DNA of 64,000 nt from Anaerocolumna cellulosilytica. Lineage in GTDB: Bacteria; Bacillota; Clostridia; Lachnospirales; Lachnospiraceae. Numbering within the stretch: the stretch's first letter is position 1; the number at the start of each line of letters is the position of its first letter. The stretch is taken from NCBI RefSeq assembly GCF_014218335.1, contig NZ_AP023367.1, forward strand, positions 807,501-871,500. Reading direction: 5' to 3'. The translations under genes and the position numbers were made by a program. The notes beneath the pieces were generated by a model, which was not told the DNA's origin, did no database searches, and worked only from the letters and a program-made list of their open reading frames with translations. This document shows, one piece after another, positions 3,954 to 45,953 of the stretch.

Positions 3954-4062
3954 GGTTGAAAGAAAATATACAGTAGGAAAGGAATGCCACTAAAATTCTT
4001 TCAATGATAGCATAATGTGGCAGTATTCCATCAAAGAGGATGGAATATCATTGGTTAAAATT
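3954..4062 (+). ncRNA. Repeated pseudoknotted leader RNA, copy 1 (gltX)
   Basis: P1 is TTGAAAGAA (3956-3964) with TTCTTTCAA (3996-4004). A loop segment, GCCAC (3986-3990), pairs outside the hairpin with GTGGC (4017-4021), forming an H-type pseudoknot. P3 is GTATTCCA (4023-4030) with TGGAATAT (4041-4048). The tail TTGGTTAAAATT runs into the gltX start codon. The conserved blocks AATAT after P1 and GGAAAGGAAT before GCCAC are shared with the other copies. No good Shine-Dalgarno sequence is seen before gltX. Class unknown. Confidence 0.8.
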
Positions 4063-5526
4063 ATGAGTAAAGTAAGGACAAGATATGCACCAAGCCCAAC
4101 AGGCAGAATGCACGTTGGAAATCTGAGAACAGCATTATATGAATATCTCATTGCCAAGCACGAAGGCGGAGATTTTATTTTAAGGATAGAAGATACCGAT
4201 CAGGAACGTTTTGTAGAAGGTGCAACAGAAATCATTTATAACACTTTGAAACTGACGGGATTAAAGCATGATGAAGGTCCTGATAAGGACGGAGGTTGTG
4301 GTCCTTATGTTCAAAGTGAGAGACAAGCTACGGGTATTTATTTAGATTATGCCAAAGAGTTAATTGCGAAAGGAGAGGCATATTATTGTTTCTGTACAAA
4401 AGAACGCTTAAGTACCTTAAAGAGTGTAGTTTCAGAAGAAGATGATAAGGAAATCATTAAATATGATAAACATTGTTTACATTTATCAAAGGAAGAAATT
4501 GAAGCTAATCTGGCAGCAGGAATTCCCTATGTAATTCGCCAAAATACGCCAGCAGAAGGAACTACAACCTTTAATGATGCAGTATATGGCGAGATTACTG
4601 TAGAAAATGCAGAACTGGATGATATGATTCTAATGAAGTCAGATGGTTATCCTACCTATAATTTTGCCAATGTAATTGATGACCATTTAATGCGTATTAC
4701 CCATGTAGTTAGAGGAAATGAATACCTTTCTTCCACACCGAAGTATACCAGGTTATACCATGCTTTTGGCTGGGAGGAGCCAATTTATATACATTGCCCC
4801 CTGATAACCAATGAAGAACACAAAAAGTTATCAAAGCGCAGCGGGCATTCTTCTTTTGAAGATTTATTAGAACAGGGCTTTGTTACAGAGGCTATCGTTA
4901 ATTTTATTGCTTTATTAGGCTGGAGTTCAGGCACTAACGAAGAAATTTTTTCTCTAGAAGAATTAACCAAGGAATTTGATTATACTCATATTAATAAATC
5001 ACCGGCTGTATTTGATATGGCTAAATTAAGATGGATGAACAGTGAATATATTAAGAAAATGGATAATGACCAATATTATGAATTGGCAATGCCACATATA
5101 AAAGAAGTGATTCATAAAGACTTAGATTTAAAGAAGATAGCTGATTTGGTGAAATCCAGAATTGAAACTTTGTTAGATATCAAAGATATCATTGACTTTT
5201 TTGAAGAGTTACCGGAATATGATATAGCCATGTACACTCATAAGAAGATGAAGACCAATGAAGAAATCTCTTTATCTGTATTACAGGAACAACTGCCTTT
5301 ACTAGAGGCGCTTGATGACTACACTGTAGCTGGAATAGAAGCTGTCATTATGGGATATATTGCAGATAAGGGTATTAAAAACGGCATGGGCTTATGGCCT
5401 CTTAGAACGGCTGTATCCGGTAAGCAGTCGACACCAGGTGGGGCTTACGAGATTATGAACATTATTGGTAAGGAAGAGAGTATCAGAAGAATTAAAATCG
5501 GTATAGAAAAGCTAACCAACAGGTAA
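4063..5526 (+). CDS. gltX: Glutamate--tRNA ligase
   Basis: This 487-residue class I aminoacyl-tRNA synthetase charges tRNA(Glu) with glutamate. The HIGH-type signature MHVGN lies at residues 16-20, after RYAPSPTGR, and the KMSKS-type signature KKLSKRSG lies near residue 250. The catalytic half is followed by the alpha-helical anticodon-binding half, and length is normal for GluRS. Start 4063 ([11 protein letters not shown]) is chosen over an upstream in-frame ATG at 4015, because the extra residues fall in the structured leader and GluRS proteins normally begin just before RYAPSPTG. Only 5 nt separate it from the helicase gene, so the two are probably co-transcribed. Confidence 0.97.
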
Positions 5527-5531
5527 ATTAC

Positions 5532-7526
5532 ATGGAAATGAATCAAGCACAGATAAATGCAATAAACCACAATACCGGGCCTATGTTAGTACTAGCAGGG
5601 CCCGGTTCTGGTAAAACACTTGTAATAACGAAGCGAACCTTAAAGCTTATCGAAGAGTATGGTATAAATCCACATAATATTCTAGTTATTACTTTTACAA
5701 AAGCTGCTGCCGAAGAAATGAAAGAACGGTTTGAGGCTTTAACAGGAAGAAGCAGCGGTGTTAATTTTGGTACATTCCATGCGGTCTTCTTCACTATATT
5801 AAAATATGCGTACCAATATAATGCATCTAATATTATTCGGGATGAACAAAGAAATCAGTTTTTAAAAGAAATAGTTGAACAGCTTACTTTAGAAATAGAT
5901 GATGAAAAAGAATTTATTTCCGGGGTTCTTTCAGAGATTAGTCTCGTTAAGGGAGAGCGTATGGATATCGAGCACTATTACTCCATCAATTGTTCTGAGG
6001 ATATTTTCAAAAAAATCTATCGAGCTTATGATTCAAGGCTTAGAAAATCCAATCTAATTGATTTTGATGATATGCTGGTGTTATGTTATGAGCTTTTAGC
6101 CGAGAGGCCGGACATATTAGCCATTTGGCAAAAGAAATATCAATATATCTTAATTGACGAATTTCAGGATATTAACAAAGTGCAGTATGACATAATACGT
6201 CTGTTGGCTCAGCCACAAAACAATCTGTTTATCGTTGGAGATGATGACCAATCTATTTATCGTTTCAGGGGAGCAAAGCCGGATATAATGTTGAATTTTG
6301 AACGGGATTATCCGGAGGGTGTGAAAATCTTGCTGGATATTAATTATCGCTCTACTAAAAAGATAGTTCACAAAGCGGCATGTTTAATCAAAAACAATGG
6401 CAAACGTTTTGCTAAAAATATAAAAGCAATAAAAGAAACTGGGCAGGATATTGTTCTTATTAATTTTAAGGAATTAAAAGAACAAAACAGCATGGTTGTA
6501 GCAGATATTTTAAAGTACTATAAAAAGGGAATTCCATTTTCTCAGATGGCTGTTTTGTTTCGAACCAACACACAGCCAAGAGCACTTATTGATAAGCTGA
6601 TGGAATATAACGTACCTTTTCAGATGAAGGATGTTATTCCCAATATTTATGACCATTGGATAGCCTCAAATATTATGGCATATATCCGGATTGCCATGGG
6701 AAGCCGCGACAGAGCACTGTTTCTTCAGATTTCTAACCGACCAAAGCGATATTTAAGCCGAGAATGTTTTGAAGATCCTATTGTAGATTTCAATAGAATC
6801 AGAGAATTTTATAATGACAAAGAATGGATGATTGACCGTATTCACAAATTGGAATATGATATTAGTCTAATTAAAAACATGAATCCATATGCAGCCATTA
6901 ACTACATTAGGAAGGGTATCGGTTATGAGGACTATCTAACAGAGTATGCCCAGTTTCGACGTATTAAGATAGAGGAACTGCTTGATACTTTAAATGAACT
7001 TCAGGAAGCATCCAAAGAATATAATACTTTTGCTGAATGGTTTGATCATATCAACGAATATCAAGAAGAGCTAAAAAGGCAGGCACAACAAAAAAAATAT
7101 AATAAAGATAGTGTTTCTTTGGCCACCATGCATAGTTCGAAAGGATTGGAATACCAGGTAGTAATTATTGTTGATGCAAATGAAGGAATTACACCTCACC
7201 GAAAAGCTATCTTGGAAGCTGACTTAGAAGAGGAACGTAGGCTTTTCTATGTTGCGATGACAAGAGCAAAAGAATATCTACATATTTATTCGGTGAAGGA
7301 ACGTTATAATAAAGAATTATCTGGTTCTAGATTTGTAGGCGAATTACTGCTCGAGAGAAATGGATTAAAACCTGGAGTTGAGGTAGAACATAAAACATAT
7401 GGTTTAGGTCAGATAAAAAAGAATCAGCAGGGGAAAATCACTATATATTTTGAACAGTTAAAAAAAGAGCGTACTCTGGATTTGGAGTTTTGTATTCAGA
7501 ATCAATTGCTTACTATAAAAGAATAA
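5532..7526 (+). CDS. UvrD/PcrA-like superfamily 1 DNA helicase
   Basis: A 664-residue ATP-dependent 3'-5' helicase of the UvrD/Rep family. Visible motifs in order are Walker A (AGPGSGKT, residues 22-29), motif Ia (ITFTKAAAEEM), Walker B (LIDEFQD), motif III (GDDDQSIYRFRGA), motif IV (NYRST), motif V (MHSSKGLEY) and motif VI (VAMTRAKE). The C-terminus has the GxxVEHKTYGLG segment that follows the helicase core in many UvrD proteins. It is shorter than PcrA (about 730 residues), mainly in the 2B region. It follows gltX by 5 nt. A role in repair or replication restart is inferred from the family. Confidence 0.93.
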   Translation: MEMNQAQINAINHNTGPMLVLAGPGSGKTLVITKRTLKLIEEYGINPHNILVITFTKAAAEEMKERFEALTGRSSGVNFGTFHAVFFTILKYAYQYNASNIIRDEQRNQFLKEIVEQLTLEIDDEKEFISGVLSEISLVKGERMDIEHYYSINCSEDIFKKIYRAYDSRLRKSNLIDFDDMLVLCYELLAERPDILAIWQKKYQYILIDEFQDINKVQYDIIRLLAQPQNNLFIVGDDDQSIYRFRGAKPDIMLNFERDYPEGVKILLDINYRSTKKIVHKAACLIKNNGKRFAKNIKAIKETGQDIVLINFKELKEQNSMVVADILKYYKKGIPFSQMAVLFRTNTQPRALIDKLMEYNVPFQMKDVIPNIYDHWIASNIMAYIRIAMGSRDRALFLQISNRPKRYLSRECFEDPIVDFNRIREFYNDKEWMIDRIHKLEYDISLIKNMNPYAAINYIRKGIGYEDYLTEYAQFRRIKIEELLDTLNELQEASKEYNTFAEWFDHINEYQEELKRQAQQKKYNKDSVSLATMHSSKGLEYQVVIIVDANEGITPHRKAILEADLEEERRLFYVAMTRAKEYLHIYSVKERYNKELSGSRFVGELLLERNGLKPGVEVEHKTYGLGQIKKNQQGKITIYFEQLKKERTLDLEFCIQNQLLTIKE

Positions 7527-7550
7527 GGACTGCAGCAGCCTGCAGTCCTT
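7525..7550 (-). terminator. Hairpin between convergent genes
   Basis: AAGGACTGCAG (7525-7535) and CTGCAGTCCTT (7540-7550) form a perfect 11-bp stem with a 4-nt loop. Read on the minus strand it is followed by ATTCTTTTATAG, a modest U tract, so it most likely terminates the DUF1292 gene. It also overlaps the end of the helicase gene. Confidence 0.7.
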
Positions 7551-7560
7551 GGGGAAGGAA

Positions 7561-7923
7561 TTATTCTTCCTCTTCTTCCTCTTCTTCACCGAACATATCA
7601 TCAAATTCTTCACTGTCCATTAATTCATCAAATGCATCAGAAACAGCTTCGAATTCTTCATCATTTTCAATATTTAACAACTCAATTTCATCGTTTTCAT
7701 GTTCAATAAATTGATATAAGAAAATTTCGCCTTCTTCATCTTCTTCTCTGTCAGCAGGAACAAGTGCGATATAATCTTTTTCGCCGACTGGGAATATGCA
7801 TAAAACTTCACATTCTAAGTTTGTACCATCATCAAGTGTTAATGTAACATTCATATGCTCATGTTCGTGCTCATGGTCGTGGTCATGTCCGCAACCGCAG
7901 CCGCAGTGGTCGTGTTCGCTCAT
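7561..7923 (-). CDS. DUF1292 family protein with His-rich N-terminus
   Basis: A 120-residue, very acidic protein. Residues 25-95 resemble DUF1292 (YrzB-like), a small conserved Firmicutes domain of unknown function (LTLDDGTNLECEV, then EIFLYQF). The first 24 residues are a Cys/His-rich tract of alternating H, D and E with CGCGCGH, likely to bind metal ions. The C-terminus ends in a run of Glu. GAGAGG precedes the start at a normal distance. The metal-binding suggestion is inference from composition. Confidence 0.85.
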   Translation of the reverse strand: MSEHDHCGCGCGHDHDHEHEHEHMNVTLTLDDGTNLECEVLCIFPVGEKDYIALVPADREEDEEGEIFLYQFIEHENDEIELLNIENDEEFEAVSDAFDELMDSEEFDDMFGEEEEEEEE

Positions 7924-8272
7924 TATAAAATACCTCTCTTTCAGTATGCCTGTAATAAACTATCCGGCAAATAGTAGTATGTCAACAGAACTGGTATTCC
8001 ATTCGTATCTGAATAGTCAATTCCGTTCTATTGTTGTTTACTAAAGACTTTTGCTATATATAGTAAATTACCCATATATGGCAAATGCCGTAGTTTCACT
8101 CTTAGACTTTAACAGATATAAGAGCAAAATGCAAGGTAAATCTAACTATAAAATTAGATATATTTTTTTGTTAAAATTGTATTGACTTTATATAAAAATA
8201 GAATAAAATATACATAGATTTGAGTTCTTTCATCAAATTGTTTTGATGCAGAAAGAGAGGAGAAAACATTAA
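7924..8272. other. Divergent intergenic region with hairpin near RBS
   Basis: About 350 nt of A/T-rich DNA. CATCAAA (8231-8237) pairs with TTTGATG (8242-8248). The stem can be continued, across a short bulge, by TCTTT (8226-8230) pairing with AAAGA (8252-8256). This places the purine-rich ribosome binding site of the next gene (GAAAGAGAGGAG, 8251-8262) partly inside the hairpin. TTGACTTTATATAAAAATAGAATAAAATA around 8183-8211 is a plausible promoter region. Confidence 0.5.
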
Positions 8273-8887
8273 GTGGCTACAACCAATGCTAATGATGGCA
8301 GACCAAGAGATAATCGAAGCAATAATCGGTTAAATGAGAACTACAGGCCAGGGACTAGTCGTGACAATTGTAGAAACAAAACCGGACAGGAAAACAAAAA
8401 CAGTAAACCCATTCATCGGGGAGATAAACCTTATCAGAAAGAATTTAAAGAGAATAAGCCTTACAAGTCGGAAAACAGGTCATATGGAGGTTCCAGATCA
8501 GGTACCGTAAAGGATGGCAGAGATTATACACCTTACGGAAATTATAAAAAAGAAGCTAGGAACAGTGGTTATTATAAGAATAAGGACTCTGACGAGGACT
8601 ATGGTAAGGGTTATGGTGGTGGAAAAGACAAGAGAAACAGTGACTCTAGGGGGAAAGCATCTCAAAACAAAGAAAAAGAACAACAACCTGAAAAGTTCGA
8701 AATAATTAAGAGACTGGAACGTGAGAAAAAGGCAATTACCAGAAAAAATCAGGAGCTTGATAAACAAGCGGAAAAGCAAGGTAAGGCGCAGACAAGGCAT
8801 CGTAAAACCAATCGTATAGACTGGACAAAAGGTTATGAAAAGGGTCTGTATGGTGATGATGACGAGGATTATACAGAATATATATAG
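8273..8887 (+). CDS. Disordered basic low-complexity protein, unknown function
   Basis: A 204-residue protein starting at GTG after GAGAGGAG. It is almost wholly polar, rich in N, R, K, G, Y, D and E, and has no hydrophobic core. Residues 1-125 look disordered with RGD-, YGG- and GRD-type short repeats. Residues 137-175 (EKFEIIKRLEREKKAITRK) look like a short charged helix or coiled coil, and an acidic tail (GDDDEDYTEYI) ends the protein. Composition is typical of RNA-binding disordered proteins, but no domain is recognised and I assign no function. It sits between DUF1292 and a helicase gene. Confidence 0.65.
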   Translation: MATTNANDGRPRDNRSNNRLNENYRPGTSRDNCRNKTGQENKNSKPIHRGDKPYQKEFKENKPYKSENRSYGGSRSGTVKDGRDYTPYGNYKKEARNSGYYKNKDSDEDYGKGYGGGKDKRNSDSRGKASQNKEKEQQPEKFEIIKRLEREKKAITRKNQELDKQAEKQGKAQTRHRKTNRIDWTKGYEKGLYGDDDEDYTEYI

Positions 8888-9014
8888 ATTAATGTATTTT
8901 ATATTTAAAACAAATTAAGTTCATAGTATAATAATAAGGCATCTGGATAAGCTCTTGATGCCTTTTCATTTTAGCTGAAAGTAGCTGTAATTAAAAGGAT
9001 AAGGATGAAACGAT

Positions 9015-11420
9015 ATGGAAACTAAGAAAGAGAATCAGGTTAAAATATCCGTACGTAATCTGGTGGAATTCATATTGCGTTCTGGTGATTTAGATAATAG
9101 AACAGGAGGAAGGCGAGAACTGGACGCCATGCAGGAAGGCAGCAGAATCCATCGCAAAATCCAAAAGCAAATGGGAGCTAATTACAGCGCGGAATTTCCA
9201 TTGAGTATTACCATTCCCATGGAGCGAAATAATCTTATCTTTGACTTAACAATAGAAGGTAGAGCAGATGGAGTTATCAGTAATCAGGAGGAAGGTCCCT
9301 CCATTATTATTGATGAAATAAAAGGTGTATATAAAGAACTGAGTCATATGGAAGAACCAGTGCCGGTTCACCTTGCACAGGTTAAATGCTACGCCTATAT
9401 ATACGCGAAACTATATGAACATGAACAGATAGGTGTCAGGTTGACTTATTGTAACCTAGAGACTGAGAATATCAAGTATTTTGAAGAGACTTTAATGTTT
9501 CGCAACCTGGAGCATTGGTTTAACAGTCTGGTAAAGGAATATGGCAAGTGGGCTGCCTGGCAGATAAGTTGGAGGAAAAAGAGGGATGCTAGTATTAAAA
9601 ATGTAGACTTTCCATTTTCTTACAGACCGGGACAAAAGGATTTGGTAACGAATGTATATAAGACTATCTTACGGGATAAAAGACTGTTTATAGAAGCACC
9701 TACCGGTGTGGGGAAAACAATTTCTACTGTTTTTCCGGCTGTTAAGGCAATGGGAGAAGGGTTGGCAAGTAAAATATTTTATTTAACTGCGAAAACTATA
9801 ACCCGTACGGTAGCAGAGGAAACTTATCATAAACTAATGGAGAGAGGTTTGCTATTAAAGTCTATCACTATAACAGCAAAAGATAAGATATGTATACTAG
9901 AAAAGCCGGATTGTAATCCAGCCGCTTGCCAAAGAGCTAAAGGTCATTATGACAGAGTAAATGAGGCAGTGTTTGATTTGCTCAATCAACAGGACGCTAT
10001 TTCCCGGGAACTTGTGCTTGCATGTGCTGCCAAACACGATGTTTGTCCCTTTGAAATGTGTCTGGATGTGACTTTGTGGGCAGATAGTATTATATGTGAT
10101 TACAATTATGCCTTTGATCCGAATGTTTATCTGCGCAGGTTTTTCCAAGGTGAGAAAAAGAACGATTATATATTTTTAATAGACGAAGCACATAATTTAG
10201 TTGATCGTGCAAGAGAAATGTACAGTGCAGTTTTATATAAGAAAGATTTTCTCACCGTAAAGAAACTGATAAGGGGTGGAAGTGCAGCCCTGGTAGATAG
10301 AACTGGGATAGGGAATAGTACTGCGCTGGTAAAAAGGCTAGAAGCTTGTAATGCTGACTTATTAAAATTAAAACGAGAGTGCGATAATTGTAGACAAGTT
10401 GAATCAATAACGGACTTGATATACCATCTTATGCGGCTCATGACGGAATATGAGGAGTATTTAACCGATTATAAGAGTACAGATGAAAAAGAAGAATTAC
10501 TTCAGCTGTATATGAATGTACGCCATTTTATGAATATATATGAATTATATAATGATAAGTATATAACCTATACGGATTATGACGAAGACGGAGCGTTCCG
10601 TATTAAACTGCTTTGTATGAATCCGGCAGATAATTTAAATACCTGTCTGGAGCGGGGAAAAAGTGCGATTTTCTTTTCCGCCACCTTGCTGCCCATTCAG
10701 TATTATAAAGAACAGTTAGCGGGAAGAGAGGAGGATTATGCGGTATATGCTCCATCTCCCTTTCATAAATCAAACCGAATTATTTTAATCGGAAGGGATG
10801 TTAGTACAAAGTATACCAGACGTAGTAAAAAAGAGTATGAAAAAATTCTTAATTATATCAAAAGCTTTACAGAGGCAAGAAAGGGAAATTATATGGTATT
10901 CTTTCCCTCTTATCAAATGCTGAATCAGGTGGCAGAGCTGGCAGAAGGAGCTATAGAAGGTCTGGTGGCACAAAAAATGAGTATGACTGAGATGGAAAAA
11001 GAAGAATTCTTGCAGGATTTTATAAAAGAGCCGGATACTACTCGAGTTGGTTTTTGCGTGATGGGTGGAATATTCAGTGAAGGTATTGATTTAAAAAATG
11101 ACCGGTTAATCGGCGCAGTTATTGTTGGTACCGGACTTCCTATGGTTTGCAATGAAAGAGAGTTGTTTAAAGAATACTATGATAACCGTAGCGGTAACGG
11201 CTTTGATTATGCATACCTTTATCAGGGAATGAATAAGGTACTACAATCTGCCGGAAGAGTAATACGAACGTTAGAAGATACGGGAGCTATCCTGCTCTTG
11301 GATGAACGGTTCTTGCAAAGGCAGTATTCAGACCTGTTTCCAAGAGAATGGTATCCGAATATTGTAGTAGATGCCACCTCAATGAGTGGTTATTTAAATG
11401 ATTTTTGGAGTGGGATATAA
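9015..11420 (+). CDS. XPD/DinG-type helicase with N-terminal PD-(D/E)XK nuclease
   Basis: An 801-residue fusion. Residues about 35-170 resemble a PD-(D/E)XK nuclease (GRADGV, then IIIDEIKG with the D-E-x-K core, then a helix with QVKCYAY). The superfamily 2 helicase core follows, with Walker A (APTGVGKT), a DEAH box (LIDEAHNL), and between them four spaced cysteines (around CILEKPDC, AACQRAKG, CPFEMC) expected to hold an iron-sulfur cluster, as in XPD and DinG. The C-terminal half carries FFSATLL, GIFSEGIDL and QSAGRVIR. Predicted role is 5'-3' DNA unwinding with optional cleavage during repair. The start has AAGGATAAGGATG upstream. Confidence 0.88.
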   Translation: METKKENQVKISVRNLVEFILRSGDLDNRTGGRRELDAMQEGSRIHRKIQKQMGANYSAEFPLSITIPMERNNLIFDLTIEGRADGVISNQEEGPSIIIDEIKGVYKELSHMEEPVPVHLAQVKCYAYIYAKLYEHEQIGVRLTYCNLETENIKYFEETLMFRNLEHWFNSLVKEYGKWAAWQISWRKKRDASIKNVDFPFSYRPGQKDLVTNVYKTILRDKRLFIEAPTGVGKTISTVFPAVKAMGEGLASKIFYLTAKTITRTVAEETYHKLMERGLLLKSITITAKDKICILEKPDCNPAACQRAKGHYDRVNEAVFDLLNQQDAISRELVLACAAKHDVCPFEMCLDVTLWADSIICDYNYAFDPNVYLRRFFQGEKKNDYIFLIDEAHNLVDRAREMYSAVLYKKDFLTVKKLIRGGSAALVDRTGIGNSTALVKRLEACNADLLKLKRECDNCRQVESITDLIYHLMRLMTEYEEYLTDYKSTDEKEELLQLYMNVRHFMNIYELYNDKYITYTDYDEDGAFRIKLLCMNPADNLNTCLERGKSAIFFSATLLPIQYYKEQLAGREEDYAVYAPSPFHKSNRIILIGRDVSTKYTRRSKKEYEKILNYIKSFTEARKGNYMVFFPSYQMLNQVAELAEGAIEGLVAQKMSMTEMEKEEFLQDFIKEPDTTRVGFCVMGGIFSEGIDLKNDRLIGAVIVGTGLPMVCNERELFKEYYDNRSGNGFDYAYLYQGMNKVLQSAGRVIRTLEDTGAILLLDERFLQRQYSDLFPREWYPNIVVDATSMSGYLNDFWSGI

Positions 11421-20706: not shown

Positions 20707-20719
20707 GGAAAAAAATTAT

Positions 20720-20828
20720 GTTTGAAAGAAAATATTTATATTAGAAAGGAATGCCACTTACAACTTCTTTCAAGCTATTTTTATGTGGCTGTATTACGAA
20801 TTATTGTAATACTATAAGAGGTAACAGA
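20720..20828 (+). ncRNA. Repeated pseudoknotted leader RNA, copy 2 (lipoprotein)
   Basis: P1 is GTTTGAAAGAA (20720-20730) with TTCTTTCAAGC (20765-20775), 11 pairs. Its outermost pairs (G-C, U-G) differ from copies 3 and 4 (G-C, G-C) but still pair. The pseudoknot is GCCAC (20753-20757) with GTGGC (20785-20789). P3 is GTATTAC (20791-20797) with GTAATAC (20806-20812), sequence unlike the other copies yet fully paired. The tail AAGAGGTAACAGA holds the ribosome binding site directly before the start at 20829. Confidence 0.82.
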
Positions 20829-21486: not shown

Positions 21487-21513
21487 CGTAAGCGATTATT
21501 ATATTTAATAAAG

Positions 21514-21621
21514 AGGTTGAAAGAAAATATAGAAAGAGAAAGGATGCCACTTAAATTCTTTCAACCTGATTTAGTGGCAGTAGCACTTTTATTAAGAGAA
21601 GTGCTGAAAGTGGTGTAAGTA
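21514..21621 (+). ncRNA. Repeated pseudoknotted leader RNA, copy 3 (glyS)
   Basis: P1 is GGTTGAAAGAA (21515-21525) with TTCTTTCAACC (21556-21566), 11 perfect pairs. The pseudoknot is GCCAC (21546-21550) with GTGGC (21574-21578), extendable by flanking U-A pairs. P3 is AGCACTT (21582-21588) with AAGTGCT (21599-21605). The tail GAAAGTGGTGTAAGTA ends at the glyS start. The tail's AAGTGG is also complementary to CCACTT in the P1 loop, giving an alternative 6-bp pairing that would cover the ribosome binding site. Confidence 0.85.
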
Positions 21622-23010
21622 ATGGAAAAGACAATGGAAAAAATTGTTGCCTTAGCCAAGGCAAGAGGATTTGTTTACCCGGGTTCTGAAATATATGGTG
21701 GATTGGCAAATACCTGGGATTATGGTAATCTTGGTGTAGAATTAAAAAATAATGTAAAGAAGGCCTGGTGGTTAAAATTTATTCAGCAGAATCCTTATAA
21801 TGTAGGAGTAGATTGTGCAATTCTTATGAATCCTCAGACATGGGTTGCTTCCGGCCATCTTGGCAGCTTTTCAGACCCCTTAATGGACTGTAAAGAATGT
21901 CACGAAAGATTTCGTGCAGATAAATTGATTGAGGATTATGCACAGGAACATAATATAACCTTTGAGGGTTCTGTAGATGCCTGGTCTCATGAAGAGATGG
22001 CAAGATACATTGACGAACATACTATTGATTGCCCAACTTGCGGAAAACATAACTTTACAGATATTCGCCAGTTTAACTTAATGTTTAAAACTTTTCAGGG
22101 TGTAACAGAGGATGCAAAGAATGTTGTTTACTTGCGACCAGAGACAGCGCAGGGAATCTTTGTTAACTTTAAAAATGTACAGAGAACTTCCAGAAAAAAA
22201 ATACCATTTGGAATCGGACAGGTTGGTAAATCCTTCCGTAACGAGATAACTCCCGGTAATTTTACATTTAGAACCAGAGAATTTGAACAAATGGAATTAG
22301 AATTTTTCTGTGAACCGGATACAGATTTGGAGTGGTTTGCATATTGGAAACAATTCTGTATTGACTGGCTACAAAATCTTGGTATAAATGAAGATGAAAT
22401 GAGAGTACGTGACCATGATGCAGCAGAACTTTCATTCTATAGTAAAGCAACTACCGATATTGAATTCTTATTCCCATTTGGATGGGGTGAATTATGGGGA
22501 ATTGCTGATAGAACAGATTATGACTTAACGCAGCATCAGAATGTGTCTAAAGAAGATTTAGGATACTTTGACGATGAGAAAAAGATAAAATATATTCCTT
22601 ATGTAATCGAACCATCCTTAGGCGCTGACAGGGTGACATTGGCATTCCTTTGCAGTGCATATGATGAAGAAGATTTAGGGGAGGGGGATGTACGTACGGT
22701 ACTACATTTCCATCCGGCATTAGCACCTGTAAAGATTGGTGTATTACCGTTGTCTAAAAAACTTTCCGAAGGTGCAGAAAAAATCTTTATGGATCTGAGC
22801 AAAACTTATAACTGTGAATTCGATGATAGAGGTAATATCGGAAAGAGATACCGCAGACAGGATGAAATCGGAACTCCTTTCTGTATTACTTATGATTTTG
22901 AGTCTGAGACAGATGAGTCTGTAACAGTTCGTGACCGAGATACTATGCAACAGGAACGAATAAAAATTGCAGATTTAAAGAATTATTTTGAGAAAAAGTT
23001 TGATTTCTAA
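21622..23010 (+). CDS. glyS: Glycine--tRNA ligase (single-chain, dimeric type)
   Basis: A 462-residue class II aminoacyl-tRNA synthetase of the alpha2 type (sometimes called glyQS). It starts [35 protein letters not shown], with class II motif 1 after it. A zinc-ribbon-like insertion has CKECHERF and CPTCGKHN. Motif 2 is visible as [13 protein letters not shown] and [14 protein letters not shown], and motif 3 as [12 protein letters not shown]. The C-terminal anticodon-binding domain ends with the [10 protein letters not shown] segment. Length is normal for Firmicutes. No T-box can be found; the repeated pseudoknot leader takes that place. Confidence 0.97.
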
Positions 23011-31544: not shown

Positions 31545-31578
31545 CAATATTCAAAAGAAAAACCTAAAGAGGTTTAAA

Positions 31579-31687
31579 ATCTTCTTTCATCCAGACTTTA
31601 CTGTCGGCTTCGGAATTTCACCGAATCATACCTTGCGGTTCGTGGGCTATACCACCGGTAGGGAATTTCACCCTGCCCTGAAGATAC
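31579..31687 (-). promoter_or_regulatory. FMN riboswitch (RFN element)
   Basis: The conserved RFN blocks are all present on the minus strand: TTCAGGGCAGGGTGAAATTC at the 5' side, CCCTACCGGTGGT, GATTCGGTGAAATTCCGA, and GCCGACAGTAAAGTCTGGAT near the 3' side, ending GAAAGAAG. It binds FMN and represses the rib operon when FMN is plentiful. Confidence 0.97.
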
Positions 31688-31703
31688 ATATTAATTTAAT
31701 CGG

Positions 31704-38733: not shown

Positions 38734-41643
38734 ATGAAATCGAAGAAGTCCTTGATAGTTCTCATAGTAGCCGTTCTTGTAGTAGTTGCAGCGGTTATTG
38801 CCGTGATTTTTTATAAGAATCATTCTAAGGGAATGAATGCAGTTCCAGCTTCAAATACCGTTGTTTATGACACCTCTTATAAGAAATATCTTGATCAGAA
38901 AGGCTATGGCGGAACTACCCTAAAAGCTAATCTGCAAATAGATCTTAAAGAGTATCAGGCAACGGATGGAATGACGGCAGAAATACAGGAGGGTGGCCTT
39001 GTAACAGGCGACAGCGGTTCAATTACTTGGACTTTTACAGCTCAGGAAGAGGGTTTTTATAATCTAGAAATCGGATATATCCCGCAGCCGGGTACTACCT
39101 CAGACATACAGAGAAGGCTGCTGCTCAATGGAGAGGTCTGCTATGATGGACTGGAACAGGTGGTATTTAAGCGTTTTTGGGCGGATGAAGCCATCAAGAG
39201 TAAAAATGGTAATGAAATAAGACCTAATACCAATGAAGTATATAAAGAAAGCAAAGTTTTTGTGGAGGATGCCAAGAGAAGAATAGGTGAACCCTATGTA
39301 TTTTATCTAAAGAAAGGTACCAACACTTTAACCCTAGAAGCTATCAAAGAACCTGTAGAATATACCTCCATAGAATTCAAAAAAGCGGAGAAAGCGCCGG
39401 ATTATGCATTGGTGATTGATTCCTTGAAGAACCAGTATCGGGTGTATGAAGGAGAGAATATCGTAGGTCAGGCGGAACGTTCTGAAGGCGGTACTTCTTA
39501 TATTGAAAAGAATTCTTCTTCTATTAATATTCAGAAGAATTACTCGGATCCATTATTGTATCCTTATCACCCTTATAAGATTAAATATAATACCATAGGA
39601 GCCAATAACTGGAAACAGCCCGGTAATTCCATTTCCTGGGATGTCATCGCTCCCAAAGAAGGCTTATATGAAATAACCTTTAAAGGAAGGCAGAGTCTGA
39701 AGCGAGGAGTAACCTCCGTTAGAAGATTATACATAAATGGAACTGTTCCTTATGCACAAATGAATGCAGTCAATTTTGACTATAGCAGCGACATGGTTAA
39801 TTATACGGTATCACAGGCCGATGGGACACCTTACCTCTTCTATCTGAAAGAAGGAACGAATACTCTTACCCTTGAATGTGTTATGGGTGATTTCGGAAGT
39901 GTTATCAATGATGTGGAAGAGAGTATGTATGCACTAAACCAATTATATCTTAACGTTACACAGATTACCGGACAGACTCCGGACAAATTCATAGATTATC
40001 AGATTGCGAAGAAAATACCTGAGTTTCAGGAAATTATGAGCACCGAAGAAGTAAGACTGAATCAGATAATTGAAAAGCTGGTTGCTATCACCGGCGAGAA
40101 AGGTGAAAATACCAGTCTCCTTGAAAAGATGGCAGTTGAAGCCAAAGGTCTTGCTAAAAATCCGGAAAGTGTAATCGTGGAAGTTGCACAGCTTAAGGAA
40201 AATATCTCAGCTCTAGCAACCTGGCTGGTTAATATATCGGAAATGCCTCTTGAGCTTGACAGCTTAATCCTGTCAGCACCGGAAGCTAAGTTGCCAAAAG
40301 CAAAGAGCAACTTTATAGAAGGAGCTTATTACGGTACAATCCGTTTTTTCTCCACCTTTTTTGCAAAGAGCAGTCAGATAAGCCAGTCGGAGAGCACAAC
40401 AGGTTCCAATACCATTAAGGTATGGATGGTAAATGGAGGATCAGCAACCAACGTACAGTCTATTGGCCGTGAACAGGCACAGATCATTCAAAATCTGATC
40501 GATGAGAAATTTACACCGGAAACCAATATTAATATCGACCTTCAGTTAATTCCTGTTGACGTTGTATTAAGAGCTGCACTTGCAGGTAATAGCCCTGACG
40601 CGGTAATTGGTCTTAACCAGGCAACATTACAGGATTTCGCAATGCGTGGAGCAGTAGTGGATTTGTCAAAGCTAGAGGGCTTTCAGGAAGCTACAGATAA
40701 GTATTATCAGAGTGAATTGGATGCTGCCAGGTATCTGGAGGGAATCTATGGTATTCCTGAGCAGGCAGATTTTATGATGCTCTTTACCAGGGATGATATC
40801 TTAAAAGCCGTTGGCGCCAAGGTACCAAAGACCTGGCAGGAGGTGAAAGATATCCTTCCCGCTTTAAAGAAAAATAATTATGAGTTCTTCCTTCCTAATG
40901 CCTCGGGAGCACCGAATTTTTACCCTTCCTTGGTATATCAGTTTGGTGGAGATTTATTTAAGGGTACTGGCAATGATTATGGTATCGCAAGTGATCTTGG
41001 AACAGATGCTGCCATGGAAGCCTTTAAGACCTATACGGATTTCTTTACCAATTATGGTTTTAACCCGAATGTGGACTTCCCTACCAGATTCCGTACGGGA
41101 GAAATGCCCATTGGTGTGGTTAAATATACTACGTATTGCCAGCTGGAGGTATTTGCACCGGAAATCAAAGGTCTTTGGTCTTTTACGACGTTACCGGGTA
41201 TAACGGATGAAAACGGCCAGATAAATAATTCTTATGTGTTAGAGACCATTAATAGTGCGATTCTCAATACTTCTGATAGAAAAGAGGATACCTGGAAATT
41301 TATTAAATGGTGGACAGATACAGAAACACAGCTTCAATATGCCAATACGGTAGAATCTGTTATGGGAACCTCTGCCCGTTATCCAGCTGCGGACCCGGAG
41401 GTTATTAAGAGATTACCCTGGAGTAACGCAGAACTTACGCAGATACTGGCACAGTTTGAAGCTACGGAAGGAATACCCGCAGTTCCCGGTAACTATATGC
41501 TTACCAGAATGGTATTGTATTCTTTTAATAATGTTGTAGCAGAGGGTGCTAACCCCAGAGAGACCCTGTATCTTAACCTTAAGACCATTGATAAGGAGAT
41601 TACCAATAAAAGGCGGGAATTCCATTTGTCTGTTGAAGAGTAG
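38734..41643 (+). CDS. Membrane-anchored protein: carbohydrate-binding-like region fused to solute-binding domain
   Basis: About 969 residues. One N-terminal TM segment (residues 5-26) is followed by two beta-rich modules of about 160-190 residues with repeated features (GSITWTFTAQEEGFYNLEIGY / SISWDVIAPKEGLYEITFKG; YLKKGTNTLTLE / YLKEGTNTLTLE), resembling galactose-binding-like carbohydrate modules. A coiled region follows, then a family 1 solute-binding domain (about 570-960; IKVWMVNGG, ALAGNSPDAVIGL, PKTWQEVKDILP). A GTG start at 38674 is possible, but 38734 places the TM segment at the N-terminus. Followed by its permease genes, 56 nt away. Confidence 0.85.
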   Translation: MKSKKSLIVLIVAVLVVVAAVIAVIFYKNHSKGMNAVPASNTVVYDTSYKKYLDQKGYGGTTLKANLQIDLKEYQATDGMTAEIQEGGLVTGDSGSITWTFTAQEEGFYNLEIGYIPQPGTTSDIQRRLLLNGEVCYDGLEQVVFKRFWADEAIKSKNGNEIRPNTNEVYKESKVFVEDAKRRIGEPYVFYLKKGTNTLTLEAIKEPVEYTSIEFKKAEKAPDYALVIDSLKNQYRVYEGENIVGQAERSEGGTSYIEKNSSSINIQKNYSDPLLYPYHPYKIKYNTIGANNWKQPGNSISWDVIAPKEGLYEITFKGRQSLKRGVTSVRRLYINGTVPYAQMNAVNFDYSSDMVNYTVSQADGTPYLFYLKEGTNTLTLECVMGDFGSVINDVEESMYALNQLYLNVTQITGQTPDKFIDYQIAKKIPEFQEIMSTEEVRLNQIIEKLVAITGEKGENTSLLEKMAVEAKGLAKNPESVIVEVAQLKENISALATWLVNISEMPLELDSLILSAPEAKLPKAKSNFIEGAYYGTIRFFSTFFAKSSQISQSESTTGSNTIKVWMVNGGSATNVQSIGREQAQIIQNLIDEKFTPETNINIDLQLIPVDVVLRAALAGNSPDAVIGLNQATLQDFAMRGAVVDLSKLEGFQEATDKYYQSELDAARYLEGIYGIPEQADFMMLFTRDDILKAVGAKVPKTWQEVKDILPALKKNNYEFFLPNASGAPNFYPSLVYQFGGDLFKGTGNDYGIASDLGTDAAMEAFKTYTDFFTNYGFNPNVDFPTRFRTGEMPIGVVKYTTYCQLEVFAPEIKGLWSFTTLPGITDENGQINNSYVLETINSAILNTSDRKEDTWKFIKWWTDTETQLQYANTVESVMGTSARYPAADPEVIKRLPWSNAELTQILAQFEATEGIPAVPGNYMLTRMVLYSFNNVVAEGANPRETLYLNLKTIDKEITNKRREFHLSVEE

Positions 41644-41699
41644 GCAGGCAGCATAGCATTACGGATTTCAGCTATAAAAATTAAGAAGGAGGAATTTCC

Positions 41700-42602
41700 T
41701 TGAAAAAGAATAAAGAGCCGTTTTCATTGGTATGGAAGCATCATAAAAATAAATACTTACTAATAGCACCGTTTGCTATTGTTTTCTTGGTATTTACATT
41801 GATTCCTGTTGTCGTGTCTATCGTACTTAGTTTTACATCCTTTAATATGGTAGAAGCACCTAGTTTTAACGGTCTGTCCAATTATATAAATCTGCTGGTC
41901 AGGGACGATGTATTCCTTATAGCCATAAAGAATACTTTGTTGTTTGCATTGATAACCGGACCAATCAGCTATATCATGTGCTTTCTCTTTGCCTGGATGA
42001 TCAATGAGCTGCCTCCGGTGCCAAGATCTATTATAACACTGGTATTTTACGCACCTTCTATCTCCGGTAATGCCTATATGATCTGGAAACTGATATTTTC
42101 CTCTGATACCTATGGATGGGCAAATGCCTGGCTGTTAAAGCTGGGATTTATACAAAGCCGTGTTATGTGGTTTGAAACAGCTAAATATGTCATGCCGATT
42201 CTGATCGTAGTACAGCTTTGGTTAAGCCTTGGTGTCAGCTTCCTGGCCTTTATCGCAGGTCTTCAGAATGTGGATAAATCCTGGTATGAAGCCGCTGCTG
42301 TAGAGGGTGTCAAAAACCGCTGGCAGGAGCTGTGGTATATCACCCTTCCGTCCATGAAACCTCAGCTGATGTTCGGTGCCGTTATGCAGATTACAGGATC
42401 CCTATCGGTTTCCCAGATATCCATCGATCTGGCAGGCTTCCCTTCTGTCAGCTATGCAGGCCATACCATACTGACACATTTACATGACTACGGTAATGTC
42501 AGATATGAGCTTGGTTATGCATGTACGATTGCAGTTGTTCTGTTTTTTATCATGCTTCTGTGCAATATTATTGTCCAGAAACTGCTTCGTAAATTAGGCT
42601 AA
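41700..42602 (+). CDS. Sugar ABC transporter permease, MalF-like (first pair)
   Basis: A 300-residue inner-membrane permease with six TM segments. The EAA loop that contacts the ATPase is WYEAAAVEGVKNRWQELW. The start is TTG, with AAGGAGGA seven nt upstream. It pairs with the following permease to make the channel for the binding proteins at 36385 and 38734. No ATPase gene is adjacent. Confidence 0.93.
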   Translation: MKKNKEPFSLVWKHHKNKYLLIAPFAIVFLVFTLIPVVVSIVLSFTSFNMVEAPSFNGLSNYINLLVRDDVFLIAIKNTLLFALITGPISYIMCFLFAWMINELPPVPRSIITLVFYAPSISGNAYMIWKLIFSSDTYGWANAWLLKLGFIQSRVMWFETAKYVMPILIVVQLWLSLGVSFLAFIAGLQNVDKSWYEAAAVEGVKNRWQELWYITLPSMKPQLMFGAVMQITGSLSVSQISIDLAGFPSVSYAGHTILTHLHDYGNVRYELGYACTIAVVLFFIMLLCNIIVQKLLRKLG

Positions 42603-42638
42603 TACGTGCGCTGTGGCGTGCAGATGGGAGTTAATAGA

Positions 42639-43529
42639 ATGAAAAAATTATATAAATTTCTTGTATCAAAACTGCGTGCAAGAAAATTAAGAAGAAGAAA
42701 CCGAAGCCTTATGGGAGATATGGGTCTTACGCTGGTGCTTGCTTTCTTTGGTTTATTCAGCCTTTTCCCCCTTATATTTACTGTGGTAAATGCCTTTAAA
42801 CCATTAAGCGAAATCTTCATTATACCTCCTAAGATGACGGTAGAGAATCCTACCCTGAATAACTTCTTTGATCTGGCAACGATCGTTGAGAGTTTTAACG
42901 TGCCTTTATCCAGATATATTTTTAATACCGGTATGATAACCTTTCTAGGTACCTTCGGAACGGTGCTGTTAGGCTCTATGGCTGCCTTTCCGCTGGCGAA
43001 ATATACTTTTCCCGGTTCCAAGGCAATGAGTAATATTATCGTGTATGCACTTATGTTTAATGCTTCCGTAACGGCTATTCCTAATTACCTGATTATGAGC
43101 AGGCTTGGATTGATTGATACCTACTGGGCAGTTATCCTTCCGGCAGTAGGCTCAACCTTAGGACTCTATCTGATGAAGAACTTTATGGTGCAGATACCGG
43201 ATGAAATGCTGGAAGCAGCAAAAATTGACGGTGCGGGGGAATTTAAGATTTATTGGAGTGTTGTTATGCCCTTATGTAAACCTGCCTGGATTACATTGGT
43301 TATCTTATCCTTTCAGCAGATGTGGGGGACTACAGGGGGTGTATTTATCTATACGGAAGAATTAAAGCCGGTAACTTACGTGCTCCAACAGCTGGTAAGC
43401 GGCGGTATATCCCGGACAGGCGTGTCCTCAGCCATATCCTTTATCATGCTGTTGGTTCCTGTTTCGGTATTCGTGCTGTCCCAAAGCAATGTAATTGAAA
43501 CTATGGCAACTTCCGGTGTGAAGGGTTAG
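42639..43529 (+). CDS. Sugar ABC transporter permease, MalG-like (first pair)
   Basis: About 296 residues with six TM segments. The EAA motif is MLEAAKIDGAGEFKIYW. Start 42639 (MKKLYKF) has GGGAG upstream; an earlier GTG at 42606 would add 11 residues with no obvious ribosome site. The preceding permease ends 36 nt before. It completes the first permease pair. Confidence 0.92.
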   Translation: MKKLYKFLVSKLRARKLRRRNRSLMGDMGLTLVLAFFGLFSLFPLIFTVVNAFKPLSEIFIIPPKMTVENPTLNNFFDLATIVESFNVPLSRYIFNTGMITFLGTFGTVLLGSMAAFPLAKYTFPGSKAMSNIIVYALMFNASVTAIPNYLIMSRLGLIDTYWAVILPAVGSTLGLYLMKNFMVQIPDEMLEAAKIDGAGEFKIYWSVVMPLCKPAWITLVILSFQQMWGTTGGVFIYTEELKPVTYVLQQLVSGGISRTGVSSAISFIMLLVPVSVFVLSQSNVIETMATSGVKG

Positions 43530-43543
43530 GAGGAAATGTTACG

Positions 43544-45013
43544 ATGGAGAAAAAAAGTTTACTAATCCTGCTGGTATTCCTGCTGGTGTTTCTTCCAACC
43601 AGAGTTTATGCTGCCGATGGTAAAAGTTATGATTATGATGGGTATACCTATAATTACTGGTGGAATGCCGTAGAAAGTCCGGCGGCCTTCCAGCTTGATA
43701 CTGTAATTGATGAAGCTGATATGGGTGGAATCAAAGTACAGGGATTTAATGATGTGGCTACCAGCGAAGATGGTCACATATTCCTTGTGGATACCCTTGA
43801 GAGCAGAGTGAATATAACCGATCAGAATGGCAGTTTTATCAAGTCCTTAAAGGTCATCCGGGATGCGGATAATAAAATTGTTATTGATGAGAGTGGAGCA
43901 CAGCTGGTATTCAATGCACCGGAAGGTGTATTTTATCAGGAGAAAAACAAAGAGCTTTATATAGCGGATACAGGAGCGGAGAGAATTGTAGTCCTGGATG
44001 GTTCTGATTATACCTTGAAGAGGGTAATTAAGAAGCCGGAAAATATGGCAGGCGTTTCAGAATTCAGACCTTCAAAAATAGTAGTAGACAGTGCGGACAG
44101 AATCTACGTGGTTGTACAATCAAGCTATGAGGGAATTATTGAATTGAACCCGGATGGTACTTTTTCCAGATATTTTGGTGTCAATTCTCCTTCTGTCAAT
44201 TTTCTGGATTATTTCTGGAAATCTATCTCCTCTGACAGACAGAAGGAGCAGATGAAGAAAACCTTTGCACCTGCCTTTAATAATGTGGCGCTGGATTCAG
44301 ACGGTTTTGTTTATGCGGTGACCTTTGATGCAGCTGCAGAACATATGGTATTCCGTTTAAATTCCGGCGGCAAAAATGTCTTAAGAGAAGAAGGAAATAC
44401 CTTTGTGATAGGTGATATTCACAAAATGAATCTGAATGAGCAGAGTCAGTTTGTTGATGTAGCAGTAAAGGATTATGGTACTTATGCGGTTTTGGATAAA
44501 TACAAGGGAAGAATCTTTCTCTATGATTTTGACGGACAGCTCTTAAATGCCTTTGGCTCTCTCGGAAAAACAAAAGGTTCCTTTTCTATGCCAACTGGTA
44601 TTACCTGGTCAGGAGATAATCTGGTGGTTACAGACAGTGCACTAAAATGTGCTTATATACTGAAACCTACGGACTTTGGCAAAGCAGCCTTACAGGCAAG
44701 TAAGAGTTACTATTACGGCAATTGGGATGAAGCACTGGTACAGTTTGAAAATATCCTAAAGTTAAATGCTAATTATGAAGTGGCATATGTGGGTATCGGT
44801 AAGAACTATCTTATGAAGGATGACTTCAAAAAAGCCATGTATTACTTCAAACTTGGCAACAACCGTGCATTTTATTCCAAGGCTTATAATGGGCATAGAG
44901 GGGAAGTGTTACAGGAGAACTTCGGAATCATCGCTGTAATTTTCGTATCTTTCATAACCCTTATTCTATATACGGAAGTAAGATATCATAAGAAGGAGAG
45001 TGGACATAAATGA
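43544..45013 (+). CDS. NHL-repeat and TPR protein, exported and membrane-anchored
   Basis: A 489-residue protein with a signal peptide (cleavage near VYAADG, residue 23). An NHL-type beta-propeller covers about residues 60-385 (repeats such as GFNDVATSEDGHIFLVDTL, and FSMPTGITWSGDNLVVTDS). Two TPR-like helices follow (NWDEALVQFENILKLNANYE, DDFKKAMYYFKLGNNRAFY). One C-terminal TM segment (IIAVIFVSFITLILY) anchors it with the propeller outside. Such proteins recur in sugar-transport operons with DUF5696 and Yip1 genes, but their role is not established. Its stop overlaps the next start by 4 nt. Confidence 0.82.
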   Translation: MEKKSLLILLVFLLVFLPTRVYAADGKSYDYDGYTYNYWWNAVESPAAFQLDTVIDEADMGGIKVQGFNDVATSEDGHIFLVDTLESRVNITDQNGSFIKSLKVIRDADNKIVIDESGAQLVFNAPEGVFYQEKNKELYIADTGAERIVVLDGSDYTLKRVIKKPENMAGVSEFRPSKIVVDSADRIYVVVQSSYEGIIELNPDGTFSRYFGVNSPSVNFLDYFWKSISSDRQKEQMKKTFAPAFNNVALDSDGFVYAVTFDAAAEHMVFRLNSGGKNVLREEGNTFVIGDIHKMNLNEQSQFVDVAVKDYGTYAVLDKYKGRIFLYDFDGQLLNAFGSLGKTKGSFSMPTGITWSGDNLVVTDSALKCAYILKPTDFGKAALQASKSYYYGNWDEALVQFENILKLNANYEVAYVGIGKNYLMKDDFKKAMYYFKLGNNRAFYSKAYNGHRGEVLQENFGIIAVIFVSFITLILYTEVRYHKKESGHK

Positions 45014-45645
45014 AAAATAGGAATTTAAAAGAACAACTGCAGTATTTAAAATATGCCATGTTCCACCCTTTTGACGGCTTCTATGAGATAAAATACAGGG
45101 GAAAAGGCAGTGCCCTTATAGCCCTTGCTATTCTGGTGCTTTATGGAATCATGCAATGTATTTCCTATCAGTATACCGGTTTCGTTATGAATATGAATGC
45201 CATATTTCAAATGAACAGCATATCAATTTTTATTTCCGCTTTATCCGTGTTCCTGCTCTTTACTGTGAGTAACTGGACGATTACTACATTGTTTAATGGG
45301 AAAGGCAATATGAGAGATATCTTTATTGTCTTAGGGTATTCTGTTGTTCCGATGCTGCTGCTTAATGGTGTCACCGTTGTTATCAGTAATTTTGTAATAA
45401 CAGAAGAAGTTATTATAGTAAGGTCTTTGCAGGGAATCGGTGTGGTGTGGTTTGTATTTATTCTGTTGGCAGGCTTGTGTATTATTCATGAATATTCCTT
45501 TGCCGTTAATATTAAGACACTGCTGGCAACAGCCGTAGCTGCTTTTATTATCGTATTTTTAGGTATACTGTTCTTTTCTTTGATGGAGCGTATGTATTAC
45601 TTTGTAGTGTCAGTTGCGAGGGAGATGGTAAGAAGGATTCATTGA
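45010..45645 (+). CDS. Yip1-domain membrane protein
   Basis: A 211-residue protein with five to six TM segments and the Yip1 pattern: an N-terminal amphipathic MFHPFDGFYEIKYRGKGS motif, then TM segments with WTITTLFNGKGNMRDIFIVLGYSVVP. It overlaps the NHL/TPR gene (ATGA), so the two are translationally coupled. Bacterial Yip1 proteins in such operons have unknown function; they may assist complex assembly at the membrane. It is the last gene before a 308-nt gap containing two structured RNA copies. Confidence 0.85.
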   Translation: MKNRNLKEQLQYLKYAMFHPFDGFYEIKYRGKGSALIALAILVLYGIMQCISYQYTGFVMNMNAIFQMNSISIFISALSVFLLFTVSNWTITTLFNGKGNMRDIFIVLGYSVVPMLLLNGVTVVISNFVITEEVIIVRSLQGIGVVWFVFILLAGLCIIHEYSFAVNIKTLLATAVAAFIIVFLGILFFSLMERMYYFVVSVAREMVRRIH

Positions 45646-45660
45646 CAGTATATATTTTGT

Positions 45661-45760
45661 GATGCGCTTAAGTAGCATCATGTTTCCACAATGAGTTTCT
45701 TCACTCTTTTAAGTTGTAGCAGTATCGCAGGTCAGTCTTCGATATGCAATGGGTGTAATT
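45661..45760 (+). ncRNA. Diverged fifth copy of the leader RNA, in tandem
   Basis: The 3' half clearly matches copy 4: GTAGCAGTA before P3, and the shared tail ATGCAATGGGTGTAA (45743-45757). P3 is GTATCG (45722-45727) with CGATAT (45740-45745). CCACAA (45686-45691) can pair with TTGTAG (45714-45719) at 5 of 6 positions as the pseudoknot. P1 is largely lost; CTTAAG (45667-45672) can pair with TTTAAG-type sequence at 45706-45713. The tail leads to a GTG codon at 45761, at the same spacing as in the good copies. Confidence 0.6.
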
Positions 45761-45829
45761 GTGAAAGTTTCACACGAGAAGAAGCCTAAAGAGCGCAGGT
45801 TTCTCCACTGGATTATTTGTGCCGCATAG
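45761..45829 (+). CDS. Putative 22-residue peptide after the diverged leader
   Basis: GTG at 45761 opens a frame encoding a short peptide that is basic (KVSHEKKPKERR) then hydrophobic (FLHWIICAA), stopping at TAG 45827. Its start has the same relation to the RNA tail (GGGTGTAATT-GTG) as the real genes have to theirs. The stop codon lies in the loop side of a 6-bp hairpin, TGCCGC/GCGGCA (45820-45834). It may be a leader peptide, a relic of a displaced gene, or not translated at all. Confidence 0.35.
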   Translation: MKVSHEKKPKERRFLHWIICAA

Positions 45830-45842
45830 CGGCATGTTTGGG

Positions 45843-45953
45843 AGGTTGAAAGAAAATATTATTATTGGAAGGATGCCACACAAGGATTCTTTCAACCTAT
45901 TTATTTGTGGCAGTACTGCAAGTTAAGCTTGCAGTATGCAATGGGTGTAAAAC
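45843..45953 (+). ncRNA. Repeated pseudoknotted leader RNA, copy 4 (DUF5696 gene)
   Basis: P1 is AGGTTGAAAGAA (45843-45854) with TTCTTTCAACCT (45887-45898), 12 perfect pairs. The pseudoknot is GCCAC (45875-45879) with GTGGC (45907-45911), extendable to 7 pairs. P3 is GTACTGCAAG (45913-45922) with CTTGCAGTAT (45928-45937), 10 pairs with one G-U. The tail GCAATGGGTGTAAAAC ends at the start codon at 45954. A structured RNA inside a long sugar operon implies separate control of the genes downstream. Confidence 0.85.

Follow-up and report, generated by a model that had tools for sequence, protein, structure and literature searches.

A family of mobile pseudoknotted leader sequences between the Shine-Dalgarno sequence and the start codon in Lachnospirales

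Four genes in a 64,000-nucleotide stretch of the Anaerocolumna cellulosilytica genome (contig NZ_AP023367.1, positions 807,501 to 871,500; hereafter the window) are preceded by similar leaders whose 3' ends abut the start codon, and these leaders belong to what is apparently a large, undescribed family of mobile non-coding sequences of about 108 nt. On sequence comparison, we consider it probable that the element inserts between the Shine-Dalgarno sequence (SD) and the AUG of a gene and that its fold presents a replacement SD in a loop, by which translation would be kept. The original prediction, made from the letters of the window, had described four copies of a pseudoknotted leader RNA. All four are present within a few bases of the places it gave, each reaching a start codon (the window holds exactly four occurrences of TTGAAAGAAAATAT), and the pseudoknotted leader itself stood; its mobility, its position between SD and AUG and the SD-like loop sequence had been missed, as had half of an older copy upstream of copy 4 (Table 1). 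Below, G000 is the genome that holds the window (5.43 Mb), other G numbers are other genomes and L numbers are the loci compared.

The core pattern GGATGCCAC-N7-TTCTTTCAA, with at most three mismatches, occurs at 61 places in G000, against 5 for a reversed control pattern. A search with a covariance model, suggested with the original prediction as a check, returned many further copies in G000 and related genomes. The model R1, built from 47 aligned G000 copies that match by construction, gave at least 141 matches in G000 at E ≤ 1 and at least 124 at E ≤ 0.001; R1 genome counts are lower bounds (150 candidates scored per genome) and their E-values are rough. Across 15 Anaerocolumna genomes of varying completeness, matches at E ≤ 0.001 ranged from 2 to at least 148 per genome. 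Among named genomes, the core occurs in A. sedimenticola, AGMB13025, MB42-C2 and two metagenome bins and, outside Anaerocolumna, in Robinsoniella peoriensis (G179). R1 matched 19 of 250 Lachnospiraceae genomes, G000 counted; two of these are unconvincing by eye (L105, L106) and two hold the pseudoknot-less type B alone (G107, G042; see below). A second model, R2, built from diverse copies and used across the order Lachnospirales, matched 54 of 392 genomes at E ≤ 0.01, and 27 new loci read from this search comprised 10 convincing full elements spread over three families (f1, f2, f11), 2 loop-deleted elements, 13 chance hairpins and 2 undecided cases. The core was not found in viral contigs, where the exact pattern was sought, nor in the plasmids or phage records searched.

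Comparison of copies and flanks shows the element lying, in gene orientation, between a gene's predicted SD and its start codon. Of 147 copies with distinct sequences, 135 stand ahead of an ATG-started open reading frame (ORF) of at least 50 aa that begins no more than 110 nt downstream; the remaining 12 are ten inner array members, one copy before a TTG start by eye (L150) and one before a tiny ORF (L167). The scan required the core letters and therefore saw near-consensus copies. In the 18 nt 5' of the element, the median anti-SD energy was −6.9 in R. peoriensis (n = 28), −6.3 in G259 (n = 8) and −6.3 in the named genomes (n = 28, partly of the same species), where stretches further up gave −1.5 to −4.0.

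The same kind of comparison shows the element to be dispersed and, as its near-identical copies and empty sites indicate, recently mobile. One copy from G259 has 63 BLAST matches in that genome, partial ones counted, and 11 of them are 98-100% identical; all 11 are gene-sense, ten standing directly 5' of an ATG-started ORF and one being the first of a tandem pair. Head-to-tail arrays hold two to at least four copies. At a ptsH-like gene of G259 the element has GAGGAGATTAA on its 5' side and AAAAATG on its 3' side (the leader reads CAGTGAGGAGATTAA-element-AAAAATG), and the orthologous sites in G260, G256 and G251 are empty; there AAAGGAGA is followed after 7-8 nt by the start codon, a TTG in G256. 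Synteny supports the orthology of this locus, since these genomes share the gene that precedes it (75-76% identity over 413-451 aa). The element is present at 2 of 15 readable ptsH-like starts (paralogues counted) and, by eye, in the gltX leader of 2 of 13 readable genomes (G000 and G250) and the glyS leader of 1 of 11 (G000). Insertions are also layered. At L293 and L294 a fresh copy lies between a decayed older copy and the ATG, and the window has the same order, from the half copy through a GGGAGG motif to copy 4; this GGGAGG is likely a former SD displaced by copy 4. In relatives, the glyS leaders at L217 and L221 carry other hairpin-rich stretches, which suggests layered past insertions at glyS.

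Covariation shows the predicted RNA to consist of a hairpin P1, an H-type pseudoknot formed by the P1 loop and sequence 3' of P1, and a hairpin P3, the three parts of the original prediction. In the 47 G000 rows, 92.0% of the cells of P1 and pseudoknot are paired; both sides are changed in 33 cells, against 11.0 ± 2.7 in shuffles (0/500), and the covariation score is 0.183 (0/500 shuffles; slid controls 0.034-0.091). Less clear is the count of pairs changed on both sides, which is 7 and is reached by 35 of 500 shuffles, with 8 for a +3 slide. For P1 on a set of 22 sequences (17 from 12 other genera, five from G000), seven pairs are changed on both sides, a count matched by 3 of 500 shuffles, while changed cells and covariation score are matched by 0 of 500. 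The pseudoknot alone varies little inside G000 (three of its seven pairs are invariant and both sides are changed in just three cells), so the covariation evidence for it comes from other genera, where the letters differ on both strands: CUGCC/GGCAG, UGCCCA/UGGGCA, GCAAAC/GUUUGC, GCAAACACAA/UUGUGUUUGU and UGUCACA/UGUGACA. At 11 loci without GCCAC the stem scores average 15.7, compared with 12.0 for re-dealt 3' sides (0/2000) and 10.0 when shuffled (0/2000); among the non-GCCAC loci, L097, L101 and L104 have short stems, the stem of L114 is doubtful and L115 was not parsed. L110 was excluded from alignment A3 for a long linker insert, the reason also for its low pseudoknot stem score.

P3 keeps its pairing while its letters change, as had been noticed in the window. 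Of 126 copies, 96 have a P3 stem of 8 bp or more and 113 one of 6 bp or more, where 630 shuffled sequences give 37 and 244, respectively; the 113 copies show 77 distinct stems. Pseudoknot-free folding gave z-scores of −2.87, −1.35, −2.91 and −3.78 for copies 1-4 and −6.68 for one G259 copy; for copy 2, P1 is missing from the minimum-energy structure, and an equally good fold is reached by 17 of 200 shuffles. The loop blocks AAAAT and AGAAAGGA are strongly conserved. Pairing of GAAAGGA with the 3' arm of P1 does not explain the loop block, which stays while P1 changes (GGAAGAA/TTCTTCC in G171 and G018, GAAAAAA/TTTTTTC in G029). Two type A copies (L156:6849 and L168:3549) have an extra linker hairpin (TGCGAAACCAGTTTCGCA or similar) between P1 and GTGGC, with which the pseudoknot can still form. 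A subclass in other genera (L100, L103, L355, L359, L360, L363, L368) has GCAAAC/GTTTGC-like pseudoknots, a different P3 and a start codon mostly preceded by GGTA or GGTG.

The mobility raises an alternative in which the element is a DNA-level repeat resembling miniature inverted-repeat transposable elements (MITEs) or repetitive extragenic palindromic (REP) sequences, its hairpins serving transposition alone, its position at start codons reflecting target preference, and translation using an old or chance SD. REP sequences are small, dispersed, hairpin-forming repeats of bacteria, and bursts, tandem arrays, empty sites and hairpins near both ends would all suit such a repeat. However, the older copies of G000 keep the fold and the loop block though their flank is not SD-like (median −2.9, n = 49), genera that yielded few copies preserve the pseudoknot pairing with other letters, and displaced upstream copies decay, by eye; we regard this alternative as unlikely. 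The element is like MITEs, RU and BOX/RUP in being non-coding, dispersed, hairpin-forming and about 100 bp long; it is unlike them in its single target (the SD-AUG gap, in gene sense), in its covarying pseudoknot with an SD-like loop and in the lack, by eye on near-identical copies, of a terminal inverted repeat (the ends are GGTTGAAAG and CAATGGGTGT). A relative could be among the 250 mobile or repeat candidates of PMC11109978.

The loop block AGAAAGGA is probably a working SD. It is complementary to UCCUUUCU, which we take to be the end of the 16S rRNA 3' tail, and its median tail-pairing energy is −10.0 kcal/mol against −5.4 for the near-start sequence (119 of 147 copies, those with the start 27-64 nt after GTGGC). 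The near-start motif is mostly GGGTGT or GGGTAT, with G at −10 in 79% and at −9 in 84%. Homologous starts free of the element have a median of −9.3 kcal/mol (n = 30), stronger than the near-start SDs (p = 1e-11); this control set excludes glyS loci with an offset start (L215, L217, L219, L234), the truncated ptsH-like locus L324, the duplicate L197, partial gltX loci and element-bearing loci. Type B, a second leader element that shares the 3' half and has neither the pseudoknot nor AGAAAGGA, ends in a stronger SD (median −9.4, n = 7 including one false hit, L223, left in; p = 0.0014). A loop-deleted f2 copy (L370) has GGGGG before its gene. At 21 loci in other genera the energies are −10.1 for the loop and −5.4 near the start, and at L101, L104 and L115 AAGGAG stands in the loop with, by eye, no SD-like letters by the start (near-start −2.9 at L101 and −2.4 at L104). 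Along the sequence, loop SD and AUG are a median of 79 nt apart (65-144); through the fold, with helices counted as zero length, the median is 18 nt, and 105 of 116 copies fall within 13-22 nt. Type B occurs at L168:3565, L301 (minus strand, ~2455), L098, L102, L113 and L116, where a short hairpin accompanies the same 3' hairpin; it stands directly 5' of start codons, at times in tandem or next to type A.

In the explanation we favor, AGAAAGGA in the loop would pair with the 16S rRNA 3' tail as a working SD, and the pseudoknot and P3 would fold away the RNA between it and the AUG, leaving about 18 instead of about 79 nt, because AGAAAGGA sits just 5' of the pseudoknot stem. Translation of the interrupted gene would thus be restored by the element, in an intron-like strategy that acts at initiation and needs no splicing. 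Self-splicing introns are likewise insertions that mask their damage to the host gene; the likeness is an analogy, since here nothing is removed and the insert would instead fold out of the initiation path.

Closer precedents are phage T4 genes 38 and 25, in which RNA structure between a distant SD and the AUG shortens the spacing from 22 to 5 nt and from 27 to 11 nt (PMC3014915). In the element, too, the SD is far from the AUG linearly and near through the fold, with a median of 18 nt that is longer than the 5 and 11 nt of T4. The T4 cases are single viral genes, whereas here a pseudoknot and a hairpin span about 79 nt in a mobile sequence that can reach more than 100 copies in one genome.

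A further version of the explanation takes in the weak GGUG or GGUA near the AUG, which could bind the tail at CACC, next to the site for AGAAAGGA, so that both may rebuild one long split SD helix. AGAAAGGA plus GGUG would give 12 contiguous complementary bases on the 16S tail (−19.3), which led us to the idea of a split SD. The element would then be a mobile 'initiation intron' that targets ribosome-binding sites, splits the SD into AGAAAGGA in the pseudoknot loop and GGUG before the AUG, both reassembled on a single 16S tail, and is harmless before essential genes. We advance this version tentatively and hold it at somewhat less than even confidence. The literature covered held no description of the element and no use of 'split', 'discontinuous', 'bipartite' or 'structured' directly before Shine-Dalgarno; that coverage leaves out preprints and most subscription journals, so absence from print is not proven. 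We know of no described element that combines selfish insertion with structure-bridged initiation.

The leader might instead act as an on/off switch: P3, extended by pairing of the linker UUUAUUUGU with AUGGGUGUAAA, would mask the near-start SD unless the pseudoknot forms. Pseudoknot-free folding does give an extended P3 in several of five leaders, with a median gain of −5.2 kcal/mol, and in one of three groups (the named genomes and G259) linker and 3' segment fit each other better than shuffled letters do (0/100). Over partners re-dealt among copies the true pairs have no advantage (161/300 and 166/300, with 36/300 for the third group), the pseudoknot has the stronger stem (−10.8), and covariation lends no support to an off state with extended P3. 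We therefore find a switch of this kind highly improbable. Two other roles were rejected by eye: a leader peptide starting at the ATG in AAAGGAATGCCA, the frames of which differ among the four window copies, and a terminator, as P3 is followed by the start region with no T run.

A conserved pseudoknotted fold directly 5' of start codons, with highly conserved AAAAT and AGAAAGGA, could also be read as a riboswitch or regulator-binding leader, in which all copies sense one ligand or protein for a large regulon and the pseudoknot is the aptamer. The downstream genes argue against it. As originally stated, those in the window are unrelated (gltX, glyS and the DUF5696 gene by Pfam), and no common pathway is evident among the four window genes and 19 of 46 downstream genes listed for G000. 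Of those 19 further genes, 18 have a Pfam match and, by inspection, no common theme; they include phosphotransferase system enzyme I, EPSP synthase, EutC, an ABC transporter, queuosine synthesis, homoserine dehydrogenase, a Clp ATPase, phosphoglycerate mutase and a resolvase. A conserved regulon also fits poorly with polymorphic sites and with copy numbers from 2 to at least 148 within a single genus, and pseudoknot letters that vary between genera would be unusual for an aptamer core. We judge this reading improbable. Pseudoknots at or near the ribosome-binding site are described for T4 gene 32 and rpsO (PMC3014915), and the element resembles these and the preQ1 riboswitch in that respect. 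Those three regulate particular genes, whereas the element precedes unrelated genes and offers no Rfam match and no clue to a ligand.

Rfam 15 agreed with the original prediction, in which the leader had not been recognized as any known RNA class: no family reached threshold in the window except large-subunit rRNA and the flavin mononucleotide (FMN) riboswitch, and none did in 10 loci of several genera. A permissive search of the regions of copies 2-4 gave as its best match rivX on the minus strand of copy 4 (24.5 of 100 bits, E 2.8e-4), besides DUF2800 on the minus strand, Pseudomonadales-1 sRNA (12.2 of 68 bits) and small nucleolar RNA and microRNA families. We take these sub-threshold matches as chance.

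Several observations weigh against the bridged-SD explanation or limit it. The 16S tail sequence is an assumed one, the rRNA stretch being masked. The conservation of AGAAAGGA is partly ascertained because the models and scans contain it, yet the same models also contain the pseudoknot letters, and those did change. In 11 of 116 copies the through-fold spacing is 29-83 nt, and in other genera it is 20 nt (15-49). Loop and near-start SD strengths show no trade-off among copies of the pseudoknot type (Spearman −0.02; 11 weak-loop copies), and decent near-start SDs occur in other genera (L363 −10.2, L109 −9.4, L100 −8.4, L360 −8.2). The loop-deleted f2 copy L354 retains the weak near-start form, with a very short ORF downstream. 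A few copies are without P3 (L010, L037), and in 9 of the 135 placed copies the chosen ATG lies less than 27 nt after GTGGC, which makes the true start uncertain. With regard to mobility, nine copies in two 400-kb blocks of G261 and G252 gave no clean empty site; of three inspected closely, one is shared, one has its gene partly deleted in the other genome and one is ambiguous. No transposase was identified, though no search was aimed at a partner enzyme, and no target-site duplication was made out at the junctions, whose A-rich letters could hide one.

Positions and parts of the four copies are given in Table 1 with the genes they precede and an FMN riboswitch found elsewhere in the window.

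Table 1. The four copies of the element, associated remnants, downstream genes and one further feature, in positions of the window.
Feature	Position	Strand	P1	Loop block	Pseudoknot	P3	Start codon	Remark
Copy 1	3952-4062	+	3956-3964/3996-4004	GGAAAGGA 3976-3983	GCCAC 3986-3990/GTGGC 4017-4021	4023-4032/4039-4048	ATG 4063	5' of gltX
Copy 2	20718-20828	+	20722-20730/20765-20773	AGAAAGGA 20743-20750	20753-20757/20785-20789	20791-20799/20804-20812	ATG 20829	5' of lipoprotein-like gene
Copy 3	21513-21621	+	21517-21525/21556-21564	AGAAAGGA 21537-21544	21546-21550/21574-21578	AGCACTT 21582-21588/AAGTGCT 21599-21605	ATG 21622	5' of glyS
Copy 4	45842-45953	+	45846-45854/45887-45895	GGAAGGA 45867-45873	45875-45879/45907-45911	45913-45922/45928-45937	ATG 45954	5' of DUF5696 gene; near-start GGGTGT
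Decayed 3' half of older copy	45716-45759	+						GTAGCAGTA - hairpin - TATGCAATGGGTGTAA; 5' of copy 4; by eye
GGGAGG	45840-45845	+						Adjoins copy 4 on its 5' side, overlaps P1 base; by eye
gltX, glutamyl-tRNA synthetase	4063-5526	+						Pfam
Lipoprotein-like gene, 198 aa	20829-21425	+						No Pfam match
glyS, class II tRNA synthetase with anticodon domain	21622-23010	+						Pfam domains; name from the original prediction
DUF5696 protein	45954-48602	+						Pfam
FMN riboswitch	31575-31689	-						Rfam RF00050

If the explanation is correct, the element would join selfish insertion and structure-bridged translation initiation, two things that to our knowledge are known only apart, and would be a parasite that hides from selection at the initiation step, folded out of the path of the ribosome. 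A single genome would then offer more than 100 natural replicates of a bridged SD, and it would have to be asked what recognizes the SD-AUG gap. The element could also provide a compact leader cassette for synthetic biology. For the Lachnospirales, annotation of start sites and searches for leader RNAs would meet layers of such insertions.

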